From Geoalkalibacter ferrihydriticus DSM 17813 (lineage in GTDB: Bacteria; Desulfobacterota; Desulfuromonadia; Desulfuromonadales; Geoalkalibacteraceae), in assembly GCF_000820505.1 (NCBI RefSeq), contig NZ_JWJD01000006.1, forward strand, positions 681 through 64,680: a stretch of 64,000 nucleotides of DNA. The letters run 5' to 3'. Shown in pieces: positions 33,973 through 42,195 of the stretch; position 1 is the stretch's first letter, and each line of letters starts with the position of its first letter. The position numbers and the translations under genes are program-made. The notes under the pieces were generated by a model. It saw nothing but the letters and a program-made list of their open reading frames with translations, was not told where the DNA came from and searched no databases.

Positions 33973-36114
33973 CTAGCCCCGCCGCCAGGCATGGAATTTT
34001 TCCACCCAGGTCAGTAGTTTCTCAGGGACATGGGCTTTTTTCCATTCGCCTGCGGCCATTTTGTTGGCTTCGGCCAGGGTGGGGTAGGGGTGGATGGTGC
34101 CGAGAATCTTGTTGAGACCCAGGCCGTGCTTCATGGCCAGGATGTACTCGGCGAGCAGATCGCCCGCGTGGGTGCCGACAATGGTTACGCCGAGGATCTT
34201 GTCCTTGCCGGGCGGGGTGATGATCTTGATCCAGCCGTGATCCTCGCTCTCGGCGATGGCCCGATCCAACTCGGCCAGCTCAAAAACCGTCACCTCGTGT
34301 TCGATGTTCTGGTCTCGCGCTTCGGCTTCGTTGAGGCCGACGCGCGCCACTTCCGGGTCGGTGAAGGTGCACCAGGGGATGACGCTGTAATCGGCGCGAA
34401 ACTTCTTGAATTCGCCGAACAGGGCGTTGACTGCCGCGTACCAGGCCTGATGGGCGGCGGTGTGAGTGAATTGGTAGGGGCCTGCCACATCGCCCGCGCA
34501 GAGGATGTTCGGGAAGTTGGTGCGCAAGAAGGGATCGGTGTCGATGGTGCCGCGCTCGCTCAGGCGCACGCCCAGCTCCTCCAGGCCGAATCCCGTCGTG
34601 CGGGCGCGGCGGCCCACGGCGACCAGGATGGCGTCGAAAGGCACCTCGACTTTTTGTCCCTGATGTTCGCACACCAGGATTTTCTCCTGGGCCTTGACCT
34701 GAACTTCCTTGGCGGCGTGTTCGGTCAGCACCCGTACGCCTTCGGCCTCGAAACGCTCGCGTACGAAGGCTGCGACATCGGCGTCCTCGCGGCTCATGAG
34801 CTGCGCAGCCATTTCCACCTGTGTCACTTGCGCGCCGAAGCGCGCAAAGGCTTGGGTCATCTCGCAGCCGATGGGGCCGCCGCCCAGAACCACCAGGCGT
34901 TTGGGCAATTCGCGCAGTTGCCAGAGATTGTCCGAGGTCAGATAATCCACCTGATCCAGCCCCGGGATGGGCGGCACGAACGGCTCGGCGCCGGTGGCGA
35001 CGATGATGTTGCGCGTGGTCAAAGTTCGCTCGCCGACCTGCACGGTGTAGGGTGATGTGATGCGCGCCTCGCCCTTGATGCATTCCACGCCAAGTTCGGT
35101 GTAGCGTTCCACCGAATCGTGCGGTTCGACTTTTTTTACCACCCGCTGCACCCGCTCCATCACCTCGGCGAAATCAAAATGGGTTTGCGATTTCTGCAGA
35201 CCGAATTCTGCCGCACGGCGGCCATAGGCGAGCATTTTCGCCGAGCGGATCAGCGCCTTGCTCGGAACGCAGCCGGTATTGAGACAATCGCCGCCCATCT
35301 TGTCCTTTTCGATCAGGGCCACCTTGGCCTTGACGGCGGCCGCGATATAGGCGCTGACCAGGCCGGCCGAACCGGCTCCGAGGACGACGATGTTGTAATC
35401 GAATTTTTTTGGTTTGGGAAAATCTTTGAGTGTTCGGCGTTTTTGCATGAAATCGACCCCCTTGCGGGCGATGAGAGGAAAGATGCCGAGCAGGGCAAAG
35501 GAAAGCAGCAGCTGCGGCGAAAGGATGCCGCCGAGCGTCTCGATCTGACCGAGTTGGGTGCCGGCGTTGACGTAGACCGCAGTCCCTGGAAGCATGCCGA
35601 GCTGGCTGACCCAGTAATAGGTCAGGGTACGCATGGGGGTGAGTCCCATCGCCAGGTTGATGACGAAAAAGGGGAAGATCGGCACCAGACGCAGGGTGAA
35701 CAGGTAAAACCCGCCGTCTTTTTCAATGCCCGCGTTGAGCGCCTTGAGACGTTTGCCGAATTTGCTCTGCACCCAGTCGCGCAGCAGAAAGCGGCTGACC
35801 AGAAAGGCCAGGGTCGCACCGATGGTGCTGGCGAAAGACACAACGATGAGTGCGGGTAAAAAACCAAACAGCGCGCCGCCGGCCAGGGTCATGACGGCGG
35901 CGCCCGGCAGTGACAGGGCGGTGACCAGAATATAGAAGAGAAAATAAGCGCCAAGCGTCAGGAAACGATTGGCGGCGTAGAATTGCTGAAACGCCTCCTG
36001 GCGGGCTTTGAGTTCGGTAAGAGTCAGGTAGCGCTGCAGATCGAAAACAAAGAACAGCGTGACCAATATGGCAATGGCCAGGAGGATGAGGATTTTTTTG
36101 CCGTTGCCTGTCAT
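33973..36114 (-). CDS. Fusion of TVP38/TMEM64 membrane domain and mercuric-reductase-like flavoprotein
   Basis: A 713-residue protein. Residues 1-225 form a TVP38/TMEM64 (SNARE-associated/DedA-like) membrane domain with several TM helices. Residues about 240-713 form a class-I pyridine-nucleotide disulfide oxidoreductase: FAD motif VVLGAGSAGLVSA, redox pair CLNTGC in GGDCLNTGCVPSK, NAD motif VVLGGGPIGCEM, and the dimer-interface TIHPYPTLAE. The MerA Cys-Cys C-terminus is absent, so mercuric reduction is unlikely; a membrane-tethered thiol or quinone reductase is inferred. It is 36 nt after the ArsS gene and probably acts with it. Confidence 0.9.
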   Translation of the reverse strand: MTGNGKKILILLAIAILVTLFFVFDLQRYLTLTELKARQEAFQQFYAANRFLTLGAYFLFYILVTALSLPGAAVMTLAGGALFGFLPALIVVSFASTIGATLAFLVSRFLLRDWVQSKFGKRLKALNAGIEKDGGFYLFTLRLVPIFPFFVINLAMGLTPMRTLTYYWVSQLGMLPGTAVYVNAGTQLGQIETLGGILSPQLLLSFALLGIFPLIARKGVDFMQKRRTLKDFPKPKKFDYNIVVLGAGSAGLVSAYIAAAVKAKVALIEKDKMGGDCLNTGCVPSKALIRSAKMLAYGRRAAEFGLQKSQTHFDFAEVMERVQRVVKKVEPHDSVERYTELGVECIKGEARITSPYTVQVGERTLTTRNIIVATGAEPFVPPIPGLDQVDYLTSDNLWQLRELPKRLVVLGGGPIGCEMTQAFARFGAQVTQVEMAAQLMSREDADVAAFVRERFEAEGVRVLTEHAAKEVQVKAQEKILVCEHQGQKVEVPFDAILVAVGRRARTTGFGLEELGVRLSERGTIDTDPFLRTNFPNILCAGDVAGPYQFTHTAAHQAWYAAVNALFGEFKKFRADYSVIPWCTFTDPEVARVGLNEAEARDQNIEHEVTVFELAELDRAIAESEDHGWIKIITPPGKDKILGVTIVGTHAGDLLAEYILAMKHGLGLNKILGTIHPYPTLAEANKMAAGEWKKAHVPEKLLTWVEKFHAWRRG

Positions 36115-36160: not shown

Positions 36161-37152
36161 ATCTCGCCCCCTCAGGTAAAGCCTGCACCGGCGGTGCAGG
36201 CATAGCAGTGATCGGCGGTGGCGATGAGAGTACCCTCGGCGGGCGGGGCAGGTAGGTCGCGCACATGGGTGCGTTTTTCACCCCGGCAGATGCCGGCGGC
36301 CAGATGAAAATCGCAATCGAAGACATAACCATCCCAGGAGATACTAATCTGCTCACGGCACATGAGTGCGGGGATCGTTTCCGGGTTGAAGGCCTGGGCC
36401 AGTTTGCGCATGTAGCCTTCATAGTTGCCTGAGTTTTCCAGCCAGTCCTGGAAACGTCCCAAGGGCGTGTTGGTCAGCGTGAACAGGTTGTTGAAAACCA
36501 GGCCCCAGCGTTTGTGCAGCTCGCGCCGGTAGCGTTTTTCCGTCGCCCCCTGATTGGCGGGCAGGAAGGCGCCGCCGGGGTTGACGGCCAGGTGAAGTTC
36601 CAGCCCTGAGCCTTCGCACCCATAGCCCAAGTCATTGAGGCGGTGCAGCATCGCCAGGCTTTTTTCCCAGACCCCTGAGCCTCTCTGCGCCTCGATCTGG
36701 GCTTCGCGCAGGGCCGGAAAGGAAACCACCAGGGCCACGCGATGCTTAATGCAGGCGTGCAGCAGTTGTTCTCGCTCAGGCCCGTTCAGCGCCGTCAGGT
36801 TGGAGCGCAGCATGAGCTTCGGCGTGACCTCTGCCAAATCGGCAAGAAAGCCCTCGATGCCGGGCACCAGTTCCGGGGCGCCGCCGGTGATATCGACCAG
36901 TTCGAAGCGGCTGCGGCGCGCAAAGGCGACGACCTCCTTCATGGTCTGTGCGCTCATGACTTTTTCACGCTGATGAGGTCCGGCCTCCAGATGGCAATGC
37001 CGGCAGGCGAGATCGCACAGCAGACCGACATTGATCTGCAGGATACGACAACGCTTGCGCGCCAGGGTCAATCCCTGCTGTTTCAGGGTGCAGCTGAAAT
37101 GCTCGAAATCCGGTGCCGGAACCTGAGCAGACGTTTTCCGTGGAATTCCCAT
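36151..37152 (-). CDS. arsS: ArsS-type radical SAM protein, predicted selenoprotein (Sec at the TGA 36174-36172)
   Basis: About 326 residues to the TGA, 333 codons if it is read as selenocysteine. The radical SAM cluster motif is CDLACRHC; the middle is typical of the rSAM/Cys-rich (ArsS, TIGR04167) family (DITGGAPEL, LRSNLTAL, PALMCREQISISWDGYVFDCDF, HCYACTAGAG). Family members end ...GxxCGG or ...GxxUGG. Here FT is followed by TGA, GGG, GGC, GAG, ATT, GCG, ACC, TAG, that is U-G-G-E-I-A-T-stop, so the TGA sits where the conserved Cys/Sec is expected. ArsS acts after ArsM in arsenosugar synthesis, making the carbon-arsenic bond to the sugar carrier. ATG 37152 has an AAAGGA site. Confidence 0.88.
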
Positions 37153-37165
37153 ACATTGAGTCCTT

Positions 37166-37498
37166 TTACAGCGAGAGCTTCTCGGCGATTTTGCGCATCT
37201 GGACGCCATGCACCAGAGAGGCCCCGCCGCGAATGGCGCCCGCCACGTGAAGGGCCTCGGTCATTTCCTCCAGATCGCAGCCCTGCTCCAGGCTGGCGCG
37301 GGTGTAGGCATCAATGCAATAGGGACACTGCACGCTGTGGGCGACGGCCAGGGCGATCAAGGCCTTTTCACGCGCACTCAGCGCCCCCTCGGCGAACACC
37401 GCGCCGTAGTAGTCAAAGAATTTGCGGGCCAATTCCGGCGCATCCTTGCCGATGGTTTCAAACAGGCCCAGATCATCGGGGTCGTAATATGTCTTCAT
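37166..37498 (-). CDS. Arsenosugar-associated peroxidase-like protein (CMD/AhpD family)
   Basis: A 110-residue AhpD-like protein: AREKALIALAVAHSVQCPYCIDAYTRASLEQG, ending GGASLVHGVQMRKIAEKLSL, which is the form annotated as the ArsS-associated alkylhydroperoxidase-like protein (TIGR04169). The CPYC pair is the redox or metalloid-binding site. Its gene ends 13 nt before arsS, consistent with joint translation. GGAGAAATTC precedes the ATG at 37498. Its partner ArsS carries the predicted Sec; this protein uses Cys. Confidence 0.88.
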   Translation of the reverse strand: MKTYYDPDDLGLFETIGKDAPELARKFFDYYGAVFAEGALSAREKALIALAVAHSVQCPYCIDAYTRASLEQGCDLEEMTEALHVAGAIRGGASLVHGVQMRKIAEKLSL

Positions 37499-37581
37499 GA
37501 ATTTCTCCATTGCAAAGTGACGTTATTGTCTGTCGACTTTCTTCGGCTGAGAGTTAAACATTAACGCAAACGTTTTCAGGC

Positions 37582-37734: not shown

Positions 37735-38265
37735 CTAGAAATCGATTTCCACCTGCAGGGCATCGAGAAATTTGTTGAATCCGGCAAAAAGCTCCATGAC
37801 GCCCAGCGCCTCGACGATTTCGGCAGCATCGGCTCCGAGATCGCGCAGAGCCTTGACCTCGGAATCCTCAATGCGCAGCGGTGCGATGTTGGCCTTGCGC
37901 GCAAAGGCGATGAGCGCGCGCTCCTTGCGGCTGAATTCCGCCTGCTGCAGATCGTTTTCAATCGCCTTGATCTCTTCGCCGGACACACCGATGGAGCGCA
38001 GCGCCGCCTCGTGGGCCGCTACGCAGTAGTCGCAGCCGTTGTCTTTGGAGACCAGCACGGCGATGGCTTCTTTCGCCTTGCGCGCCAGAACACCTTCCAT
38101 CATCACCTTTTTCACTTTGAACCAGTTGGCTTCCAGCAAGGGTGGGTGGTTGGCGTAGGCGCGAAACAGATTGGGCACCATACCGAAGGCCTGTTTGATT
38201 TCGACAAAAATTTCGGCCGTGCGGGCTTGTGCGGATTGCGGATCGAGGGAGGGGATGCGGGTCAT
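37735..38265 (-). CDS. Carboxymuconolactone decarboxylase/AhpD-family peroxidase-related protein
   Basis: A 176-residue protein with the AhpD core: FGMVPNLFRAYANHPPLLEANW, ARKAKEAIAVLVSKDNGCDYCVAAHEAAL (CDYC redox pair and downstream His), and a second CMD half at the C-terminus. It belongs to the uncharacterised peroxidase-related branch. Such proteins act as hydroperoxide reductases or thiol shuttles. It follows the TetR gene by 17 nt and leads into the Crp remnant and the ArsS unit, so it is probably under TetR control. ATG 38265 has a GGAGAG site. Confidence 0.88.
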   Translation of the reverse strand: MTRIPSLDPQSAQARTAEIFVEIKQAFGMVPNLFRAYANHPPLLEANWFKVKKVMMEGVLARKAKEAIAVLVSKDNGCDYCVAAHEAALRSIGVSGEEIKAIENDLQQAEFSRKERALIAFARKANIAPLRIEDSEVKALRDLGADAAEIVEALGVMELFAGFNKFLDALQVEIDF

Positions 38266-38282
38266 GATGGCTCTCCGTACGG

Positions 38283-38897
38283 TCAATGGGATCGGCGCTG
38301 GTCCGAACCCGGATTGTTTGTGAAAAGCATCAGACGCAAAGTCTCGATGCAATTCTTCATCGGTTTTTCCGTTTTGTGCAGGCGCGATTGCATGATGCCG
38401 CCTTCCAGTACCGCGATGACATACTCGGAAAGATCCTCGGCACTGCGTTCGGCATGAATCGACCCCTCGTCCTGAGCCTGGGCGATGATAGCGGCCAGTT
38501 TCTGCTTCCACTGAAGAAAGACCTCGGCAGTCAGGTGCGCGAACGCGGGGACGGTATCGCTGGTTTCCAGGGCCGTATTGCCGAACAGGCAGCCGCCGAC
38601 AAAACCCCTGCCGCGATGGTAGGCAAGTGCCTGGTGCAGAAAGCTCTCCAGTTTTTCGGCCGCGCTCTCGCCCTCAAGGCCTTCATCGATAAAGTTCATG
38701 AAGTGATCACCGGCCTGGCGCAGATAGGCAAGGGCCAGGTCGTCCTTGCCGGGAAAATGAAAATACAGGCTGCCCTTGGTGACACCCGTTGCTTGCAGCA
38801 GATCGTTGATGCTGGTGGCGCCAAAGCCTTTGGTGCGAAACAGGCGGGCAGCATCGTCGAGGATTTTCTGTCGGGTTTTTTGGCCTTTGATTCCCAT
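38283..38897 (-). CDS. TetR/AcrR-family transcriptional regulator
   Basis: A 204-residue regulator: the N-terminal HTH (TRQKILDDAARLFRTKGFGATSINDLLQATGVTKGSLYFHFPGKDDLA) is standard, followed by an all-helical ligand domain of the TetR_C type (GGCLFGNTALETSD). It heads the minus-strand CMD/ArsS unit and has a matching palindrome in its promoter, so it is probably autoregulatory and controls the peroxidase-like genes. The inducer is unknown. Confidence 0.92.
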   Translation of the reverse strand: MGIKGQKTRQKILDDAARLFRTKGFGATSINDLLQATGVTKGSLYFHFPGKDDLALAYLRQAGDHFMNFIDEGLEGESAAEKLESFLHQALAYHRGRGFVGGCLFGNTALETSDTVPAFAHLTAEVFLQWKQKLAAIIAQAQDEGSIHAERSAEDLSEYVIAVLEGGIMQSRLHKTEKPMKNCIETLRLMLFTNNPGSDQRRSH

Positions 38898-39225: not shown

Positions 39226-39474
39226 TCAACCCTGCAAATCCTTTTTCATACGTTGGAACTCCTCGCGGGAAATATCTCCCTTGGCGTAGCGCTTCTCTAA
39301 AATTCCCAAGGCTGTTTCCGCGCGGGGCGGCTCTTGGCTCTGATCTGTACGAAAGACCAACAGGCGCACGACCATGATCACCCCGAAGATGGCGAATCCC
39401 CACAGGACTATCATGAAAATCCACATCAGCGGCCCCATCATAGGCATGCCGTTCATCATCGGATATACGGGCAT
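39226..39474 (-). CDS. SHOCT domain small membrane protein
   Basis: An 82-residue protein with one TM helix (about 16-40, PLMWIFMIVLWGFAIFGVIMVV) and a C-terminal SHOCT domain (ALGILEKRYAKGDISREEFQRMKKDL). The Met-rich N-terminus (PMMNGMPMMG) could bind copper. SHOCT domains occur in many short membrane proteins of unknown role. It lies 18 nt after the peroxiredoxin gene and may be co-transcribed with it. Confidence 0.85.
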   Translation of the reverse strand: MPVYPMMNGMPMMGPLMWIFMIVLWGFAIFGVIMVVRLLVFRTDQSQEPPRAETALGILEKRYAKGDISREEFQRMKKDLQG

Positions 39475-39492
39475 CTCGCAATCTCCCTTTCG

Positions 39493-40155
39493 TTAACGGT
39501 GGCGCAGATTGGGCAGGGTAAGCAAGATTTCTAGAATGTTCGACGGTTCAGGGCGTCGCGTGTGATCGGTATCGACATGGGCGTGATGGATGATGCCGTC
39601 GGGGCGCACGATGTAGCGCGCCGCCAGGGGCAGGCTCCAACTCTCGTCACCGTTATGCTTCGGCAGATCTAGACCGAATTTGAGATAAACTTCGCGTAAG
39701 GCGGGGGGAAGCACATGGACGATGCCGAATTTTTTGGCTAATGCGTTGCCGGGGTCACACAGCAGCGGATAGCTCAACTGATGTTTTTCGGCCAACCGCA
39801 GGGCGAATTCGGGGACCATGGGCGAAATGGCGACCAATCGGGCGCTGCTTTTTTCGATGTCGGCGTGCACGGTTTGCAGAGCATCCAGCTCCGCGTTGCA
39901 GAACGGTCACCAGGCTCCTCGGAAAAAATTCATGACCAGGGGCCCCTCAGCGAGAAGCTTCTGAGAGTCGAAGCGTCTGCCGTCGGCCGCATTCAGAGTG
40001 AATTCGGGAACGGCATCGCCTTCCCTGAGGGCTCGCTCGACGATGCCGGATTCAGCCAAGGCGCGTGCCGCCCGGCCCATGATTTTCTGCGATTCGGCGT
40101 CGGCTTTCTCCTGAAAACCCGATTTGATTTCTTTCAGTGTGCTTTGCAGGGTCAT
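39493..40155 (-). CDS. Predicted selenoprotein peroxiredoxin (AhpC/TSA family, UxxC active site)
   Basis: Two same-frame open stretches join across one TGA (39909-39907). Before it: ATG 40155 (AAAGGAG site), a helical start, then DAVPEFTLNAADGRRFDSQKL and LVMNFFRGAW. After it: PFCNAELDAL, SSARLVAISPM, LSYPLLCDPGNALAKKFGI and ARYIVRPDGIIHH. Read through, the site is FFRGAW-U-PFCNAEL, the WCPFC active site of AhpC/TSA-like peroxiredoxins with Sec for the first Cys. The product is 220 residues, a normal family length. It should reduce hydroperoxides. A SECIS-like hairpin follows the TGA. Confidence 0.9.
39876..39894 (-). promoter_or_regulatory. Candidate bacterial SECIS hairpin of the peroxiredoxin
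   Basis: On the minus strand GCGGAGC-TGGAT-GCTCTGC (39894-39876) forms a 7-bp stem with one G-T pair and a 5-nt loop containing GG. The loop begins 19 nt after the TGA at 39909-39907. Stem, GG in the loop and spacing all fit bacterial SECIS elements recognised by SelB. Confidence 0.75.
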
Positions 40156-40274
40156 GTTGTTCTCCTTTATGCTTGCAAGCATAACAGCAATTCGTATTTT
40201 TTCCCGAGCGTTAGGGCGGGTAACTCCCGTGGTAGGATTGAACAAGAGCCTGTCAACGGGCGGAGTCGCCAATC

Positions 40275-40659
40275 ATGTCCTTGACCACGACCTTGTTCAT
40301 AGCGCTGATCGCGGGGCTTTCCATCCCCGCTGGTGATTTTGATCGTTTTGCAGAAAATGCCTGAAGGGTTTGCCGCATACACCGAGATGTCGCAGAATGA
40401 AAAATCAGCCTCGCGATTATGGCTGATTTTCCTGGCCATTCCCCTGGTGGGGACGCTGTGCGCCTGGCTGGGATTCGCCTGGCTGGCGGCGGACCAGCAG
40501 ATTCTGGGCATCCTCATGTTGTTTTGCAGCGGTGGAATTCTCTATCTGATTTTCGACGACATCGCCCCTCGCGCCCATCTGAAACACAATGATTTTCCCG
40601 CGGTCGGAGCCGTCTCAGGATTTCTGCTGGGCCTGGTGGGGACGATGCTCATTCATTGA
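40275..40659 (+). pseudogene. ZIP-family metal transporter remnant with internal deletion
   Basis: ATG 40275 opens MSLTTTLFIALIAGLSIPAG, the first TM helix of a ZIP transporter. Just after it, in another frame (40333 is 58 nt downstream), the C-terminal part continues: LQKMPEGFA (the ZIP H/xNxPEG region with Met-Lys variation), then three TM helices ending GTMLIH. About half of a usual 230-residue protein is missing, with the frame lost at the junction. It converges on arsM. Confidence 0.75.
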
Positions 40660-41745: not shown

Positions 41746-42195
41746 TTATTCAGATCGAAACAGTTCGCTGTCGGGGTGGATTTCCCTCCACACGAACCAG
41801 TAGGCGCTGATGTAGGGTACCCGCTCCCCATCCTGATCGGTGATGCGCAGTTCGCCCGTCACCTCGTCAAAGGAAAAGGAGAGAGTATTGGCCGCCAACC
41901 GATCTTTGAGTTTACCACTTTTGCGTAATTCTTCCAGGGGATAGGCCTTGGCCGTGCCGTCGAGAACCACCCCGGCCACCACCTCTTTGCCGGGAAAATC
42001 GGAAACCAGCTCGCGGAAAAAGCCGAACAGCCCGCTGCGGCTGCGGTAATAGTTTTCGTAGGGATCGCGGCTGTAATCGCGCACATGCCCGGTTTCGAGA
42101 GACAGCACGACGGTGTCTGGGTGATGTCGCTTCCATTGTTCCCAGGTGGCGCCGGCAAGAAGAACTGTCGTCCCGGTGACAATTGCAGGTATATT
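41746..42195 (-). pseudogene. DUF3179 protein, 3' remnant
   Basis: The minus strand encodes the last third of a DUF3179 protein: IPAIVTGTTVLL, TWEQWKRHHPDTVVLS, ETGHVRDYSRDPYENYYRS, KEVVAGVVLDGTAKAYP and ISAYWFVWREIHPDS. The frame stays open a little upstream but has no homology and no plausible start, so the gene lost its first two thirds. It runs straight into arsM. Confidence 0.7.

Follow-up and report, generated by a model that had tools for sequence, protein, structure and literature searches.

Judged from its sequence, an internal stop codon in a gene of Geoalkalibacter ferrihydriticus DSM 17813 is almost certainly read as selenocysteine (Sec), giving one complete redox protein of the antioxidant type. 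In the 64,000-nucleotide stretch of DNA that we analyzed (the window), a minus-strand frame is open from an ATG at 40155 to a TAA at 39495-39493, and its sole interruption is a TGA at 39909-39907. The gene comprises the following features:

39493..40155, minus strand: predicted peroxiredoxin (Prx)-like selenoprotein gene, 220 aa with Sec83 (single frame, Pfam, AlphaFold)
40161..40167, minus strand: Shine-Dalgarno-like AAGGAGA, 5 nt 5' of the ATG (read in the sequence)
39907..39909, minus strand: in-frame TGA, predicted Sec U83 of GAW-U-PFC (TGA in >50 orthologues, TGC/TGT in others)
39898..39900, minus strand: Cys86 codon, second residue of UxxC (invariant alignment column; alignment to 2cx3 and 5epf)
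39876..39894, minus strand: bacterial SECIS-type hairpin GCGGAGC-UGGAU-GCUCUGC (MFE, synonymous conservation, compensatory change)

Our data support one gene with a TGA at the first position of a CxxC motif, a conserved SECIS and complete Sec machinery. With high confidence, we interpret its product as a Prx-fold, thiol:disulfide-type oxidoreductase with a U83-P-F-C86 active site, the UGA at 39909-39907 being decoded through SelB and the hairpin.

The preliminary description had noted two same-frame ORFs whose homology continues across the TGA, and both the frame and the domain match confirm it. With C replacing U, the joined protein matched Pfam AhpC-TSA (PF00578) at 2.1e-23 and 83 bits (cut-off, 26), compared to 16 and 47 bits for the separate halves (E-values of 0.011 for the N-terminal part and 3e-12 for the C-terminal part). 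A mechanical ORF list does give two ORFs, as expected if a short N-terminal protein were followed by a separate peroxiredoxin fragment from a GTG at 39870. Two such genes are hardly credible, however, since both the fold and the active-site motif extend across the TGA, a complete domain is present in neither half, and the orthologues are arranged alike. The predicted selenoprotein gene would probably be split or overlooked by standard annotation; the earlier expectation that two truncated genes would be reported fits with the subthreshold scores of all NCBIfam models on the joined protein (see below).

The TGA is widely conserved among relatives. A search of 136 genomes of the order returned 37 with a match at an E-value of 1e-10 or better; 32 genomes carried TGA-bearing full-length orthologues, and in all 30 of those read at base level the TGA aligned exactly with the Sec83 codon. 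Among 395 sampled genomes of the phylum, 26 had a match at 1e-30, with one TGA in nearly all, and about 20 further full-length orthologues keep TGA at this codon. Across the homologues read, the Sec83 codon was TGA in 53 of 62 and TGC or TGT in the other 9. Cys forms were found within the order, in genomes G003 and G091, and also as a plasmid-borne "peroxiredoxin-like family protein" in Pseudanabaena and Aureibacter. An unrelated residue at position 83 was seen in none of the orthologues, which always had TGA or Cys; the alignment of Sec and Cys homologues that had been proposed as a check thus came out in favor of a selenoprotein. An in-frame TGA aligned with the Cys of homologues is the pattern by which bacterial selenoproteins are recognized, and recurrence of TGA at one codon in more than 50 orthologues far exceeds chance expectation. 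On a maximum-likelihood tree, the Sec/Cys label required three changes, two of them forced by well-supported branches; conversions between Sec and Cys have therefore recurred, whichever way they ran, and some of the Cys branches are long.

The ratio dN/dS was approximately 0.2 on both sides of the TGA. In the comparison with the closest relative, G042 (79% identical), dN was 0.125 upstream and 0.127 downstream of the TGA, and dS was 0.729 and 0.624, respectively, indicating that protein-level constraint is the same on the two sides. These results bear on whether a Cys-type Prx-like gene was simply broken by a change of TGC or TGT to TGA, in a pseudogene or through a sequencing error. Homologues with TGC or TGT at the Sec83 codon do exist, and remnants of decayed genes are found nearby; nonetheless, with the TGA shared by more than 50 independent genomes, purifying selection equal on either side of it and the hairpin conserved, this explanation is very improbable. 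Sequencing error in particular is excluded by the conservation of the TGA across so many independent genomes.

The hairpin has a perfect 7-bp stem and a 5-nt loop, as previously described, but the 19 nt given as its distance from the TGA is the distance to the loop, the stem beginning at 12 nt. The published bSECIS model (PMC13188914) calls for a loop of 3 to 9 nt, a stem of 4 to 16 bp, a G in the first two loop positions, a UGA-to-loop distance of 16 to 37 nt, and an MFE of at most -7.5. With G second in the loop and an MFE of -11.2 kcal/mol, the hairpin lies within every one of these limits, so the earlier statement that it fits bacterial SECIS rules holds. Equally stable structures arose in 1 of 200 shuffles; the folding energy of the 48-nt stretch around the hairpin was unremarkable (z, -0.69), and the evidence for the hairpin is therefore its conservation and not its energy. 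The bases at the loop ends are U and U here and are unable to pair, in contrast to those of the commoner loop, UGGAA. A search of positions 39300-40400 against Rfam, with E-values up to 1, matched no family.

Among 30 orthologues of the order (84 usable columns), the five codons most conserved at synonymous level were, counted from the Sec codon, +6, +10, +7, +9, and +5, all within the hairpin. Hairpin codons were identical at 0.80 to 0.93, compared to a mean of 0.38 elsewhere (Mann-Whitney P = 4e-5, an optimistic value, as the sequences are related). Each of the seven pairs was kept in 40 to 51 of 51 distinct sequences, and some compensatory change was seen at the outermost pair, which was G-C in 30 and C-G in 10. 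Furthermore, at least six of the seven pairs were present in the same register in 44 of 56 Sec sequences versus 4 of 80 Cys sequences, and an MFE of -7.5 or lower was reached by 46 of 56 versus 3 of 80, although part of this contrast reflects distance because the Cys set includes distant homologues.

The source genome (3.84 Mb, estimated to be 100% complete) was searched for Sec machinery. It encodes a tRNA-Sec (75 bits; cut-off, 47) with anticodon TCA (UCA), and selB, selA, and selD form one cluster at C1:138571-142956, each scoring over its cut-off. The lack of selB or selC, which had been named as a finding that would overturn the prediction, was thus not borne out: the genome contains selA, selB, selD, and tRNA-Sec. 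The selD gene (L013 1501-2427, minus strand; G000:C1:138571-139497) itself has an in-frame TGA, in SAGUAAKIG, and is a predicted selenoprotein gene, a second sign that this genome reads TGA as Sec. Together with the machinery, the conserved hairpin and the TGA in more than 50 orthologues sustain the original prediction of a selenoprotein. Across the order, selA was present in 31 of the 32 genomes with the TGA gene versus 114 of all 136 genomes (Fisher P = 0.026), which is weak evidence given that selA is common in the order and the relatives are not independent. selA was not found in the TGA-bearing relative G070, whose assembly is only 70% complete.

A changed code or nonspecific read-through, with TGA decoded as Trp, for instance, would likewise leave open a frame with one TGA. 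Yet of the 54 ORFs in the window that reach 250 aa, 33 terminate in TGA (the ORFs were counted mechanically, and a few may be spurious), so the genetic code has not been altered globally. Moreover, the non-TGA orthologues that were read have Cys, never Trp, at position 83, and the genome holds the full Sec machinery. We regard such a change as extremely unlikely, and Sec decoding remains the favored reading.

An AlphaFold prediction from 38 aligned orthologues (pLDDT, 96.1; pTM, 0.92) gave a Prx fold preceded by an N-terminal helical region with predicted helices at residues 3-17 and 20-35. The top Foldseek matches were Prx-fold proteins, namely, BcpB (5epf), Bcp4 (3hjp), PrxQ, and AhpE (probability, 1.00; TM by target length, up to 0.89), and the thiol-disulfide oxidoreductase ResA was within the top 50. 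Invariant residues in the orthologue alignment include R79, G80, W82, U/C83, and C86. Against Bcp proteins, including 2cx3 and 5epf, residue 83 aligned with Ser/Thr and Cys86 with the peroxidatic Cys; these motif residues, Ser/Thr and a peroxidatic Cys three positions later, are well established for peroxiredoxins. The TGA had been placed at the first Cys of the WCPFC of peroxiredoxins. This is true of the Cys homologues, but genuine peroxiredoxins have Thr or Ser there, with Cys86 at the position of the peroxidatic Cys. In the predicted active site, a UxxC motif of the thioredoxin type is carried by a Prx scaffold.

In the proposed mechanism, SelB with Sec-tRNA(UCA) would dock on the hairpin at 39894-39876, whereupon the ribosome would read the UGA at 39909-39907 as Sec; we infer that this insertion takes place in the cell. 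The Sec83 selenolate could then attack the substrate, and Cys86 would resolve Sec83 as a selenenyl-sulfide. A peroxide or disulfide may thereby be reduced with electrons from a thioredoxin-type donor, which would recycle U83/C86.

Selenoproteins termed "Prx-like," with UxxC instead of TxxU, have been described previously (PMC1088965), and Geobacter species are listed among their carriers (PMC1794560). This group (the "Prx-like" or "Prx-like 1" of Zhang and Gladyshev) has been reported from Geobacter, other deltaproteobacteria, and marine metagenomes (PMC1088965, PMC2398784, PMC1794560, PMC13188914). The UxxC motif and a Cys86 at the peroxidatic position place our protein with these published Prx-like thiol:disulfide oxidoreductases. 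Its PF00578 domain with W-U-P-F-C and the bSECIS just 3' of the TGA are common to the group, and no difference was found, the type member WP_010940744.1 having been compared by description only. Thus, the family is already known, and the present gene is a well-supported further example. The Cys-containing "peroxiredoxin-like family proteins" (WP_281009795.1 of Pseudanabaena and WP_309940617.1 of Aureibacter) align over their full length at 42 to 45% identity and share the N-terminal region and the motif (FYRGxWCPYC), but they have TGT or TGC in place of the TGA and the hairpin is usually absent.

Two other assignments were rejected. TxxU peroxiredoxins (PrxU) have a thioredoxin/Prx fold and an active-site Sec in common with our protein, which differs in having UxxC, with Sec at the Thr/Ser position (residue 83) and Cys86 at the peroxidatic one; the NCBIfam PrxU model scored 18 of the 270 bits needed. 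SelL-related redox proteins (NF040769) gave the best NCBIfam match, over the same domain stretch, at 51.7 bits (cut-off, 120), and no NCBIfam model reached its cut-off on the joined protein. Separately, we observed another Prx-like group (about 30% identity) in which an in-frame TGA occupies the corresponding position (FYRGGW-U-PYC; L163 5875-7094 in G123, L170, L172, and L173). In G123, its gene adjoins the orthologue, so that two predicted selenoprotein genes are adjacent.

Downstream of the Prx-like gene are genes for a SHOCT protein, a TetR regulator, two CMD/AhpD-type proteins, ArsS, and a flavin disulfide reductase with a VTT domain; upstream is an arsenite-methyltransferase-like gene that falls below its family cut-off (193.8 of 263 bits). 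The better-defined neighbors are as follows:

38283..38897, minus strand: TetR-family regulator (Pfam TetR_N and TetR_C_13; also next to the Prx-like gene in G042 and G438)
37735..38511, minus strand: AhpD/CMD peroxidase-related protein, coordinates of the listed ORF, whose start may be further in (TIGR01926, 97 bits, over cut-off)
37166..37510, minus strand: ArsS-associated AhpD/CMD-type peroxidase-like protein, CxxC form (TIGR04169, 189 bits, over cut-off)
36172..37209, minus strand: ArsS radical SAM protein, a possible partner in function (TIGR04167, 356 bits, over cut-off)

In the reductase (33973-36114, minus strand), a VTT (DedA/TVP38-type) membrane domain is fused to a MerA-like flavin disulfide reductase, and the fusion also lies near ArsS in several relatives. 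On the other side, a ZIP-type metal transporter gene (40333-40659, plus strand) retains only the C-terminal third (profile positions 211-317 of 323, below cut-off) and is apparently a remnant, and a gene for a DUF3179 protein (41746-42108, minus strand) is partial (profile positions 146-230 of 292) and apparently truncated.

ArsS lies close to the Prx-like gene in G042, G100, G438, and G473. The TetR-CMD-ArsS-reductase set around the gene is kept in G042 and G438 and partly in G100, G473, and G455; it was not found there in 13 other relatives, some with short contigs. A literature search for ArsS or arsenosugar together with selenoproteins returned nothing useful. That the gene is linked in function to the adjacent ArsS/ArsM/CMD cluster is at most suggested by these data. 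It is rather unlikely that the selenoprotein is a functional component of that cluster, for example in keeping trivalent arsenic intermediates or thiol carriers reduced; if it is, selenium chemistry serves organoarsenical biosynthesis.

The gene is a clean case in which standard gene calling would lose the active site of a redox enzyme. As current NCBIfam models fall short on the joined protein, its more than 50 TGA-bearing orthologues with a common SECIS are well suited to seed an annotation model. Sec and Cys forms recurring in one family, with Sec at the Thr/Ser position of peroxiredoxins, are a useful pair for studying the contribution of selenium.
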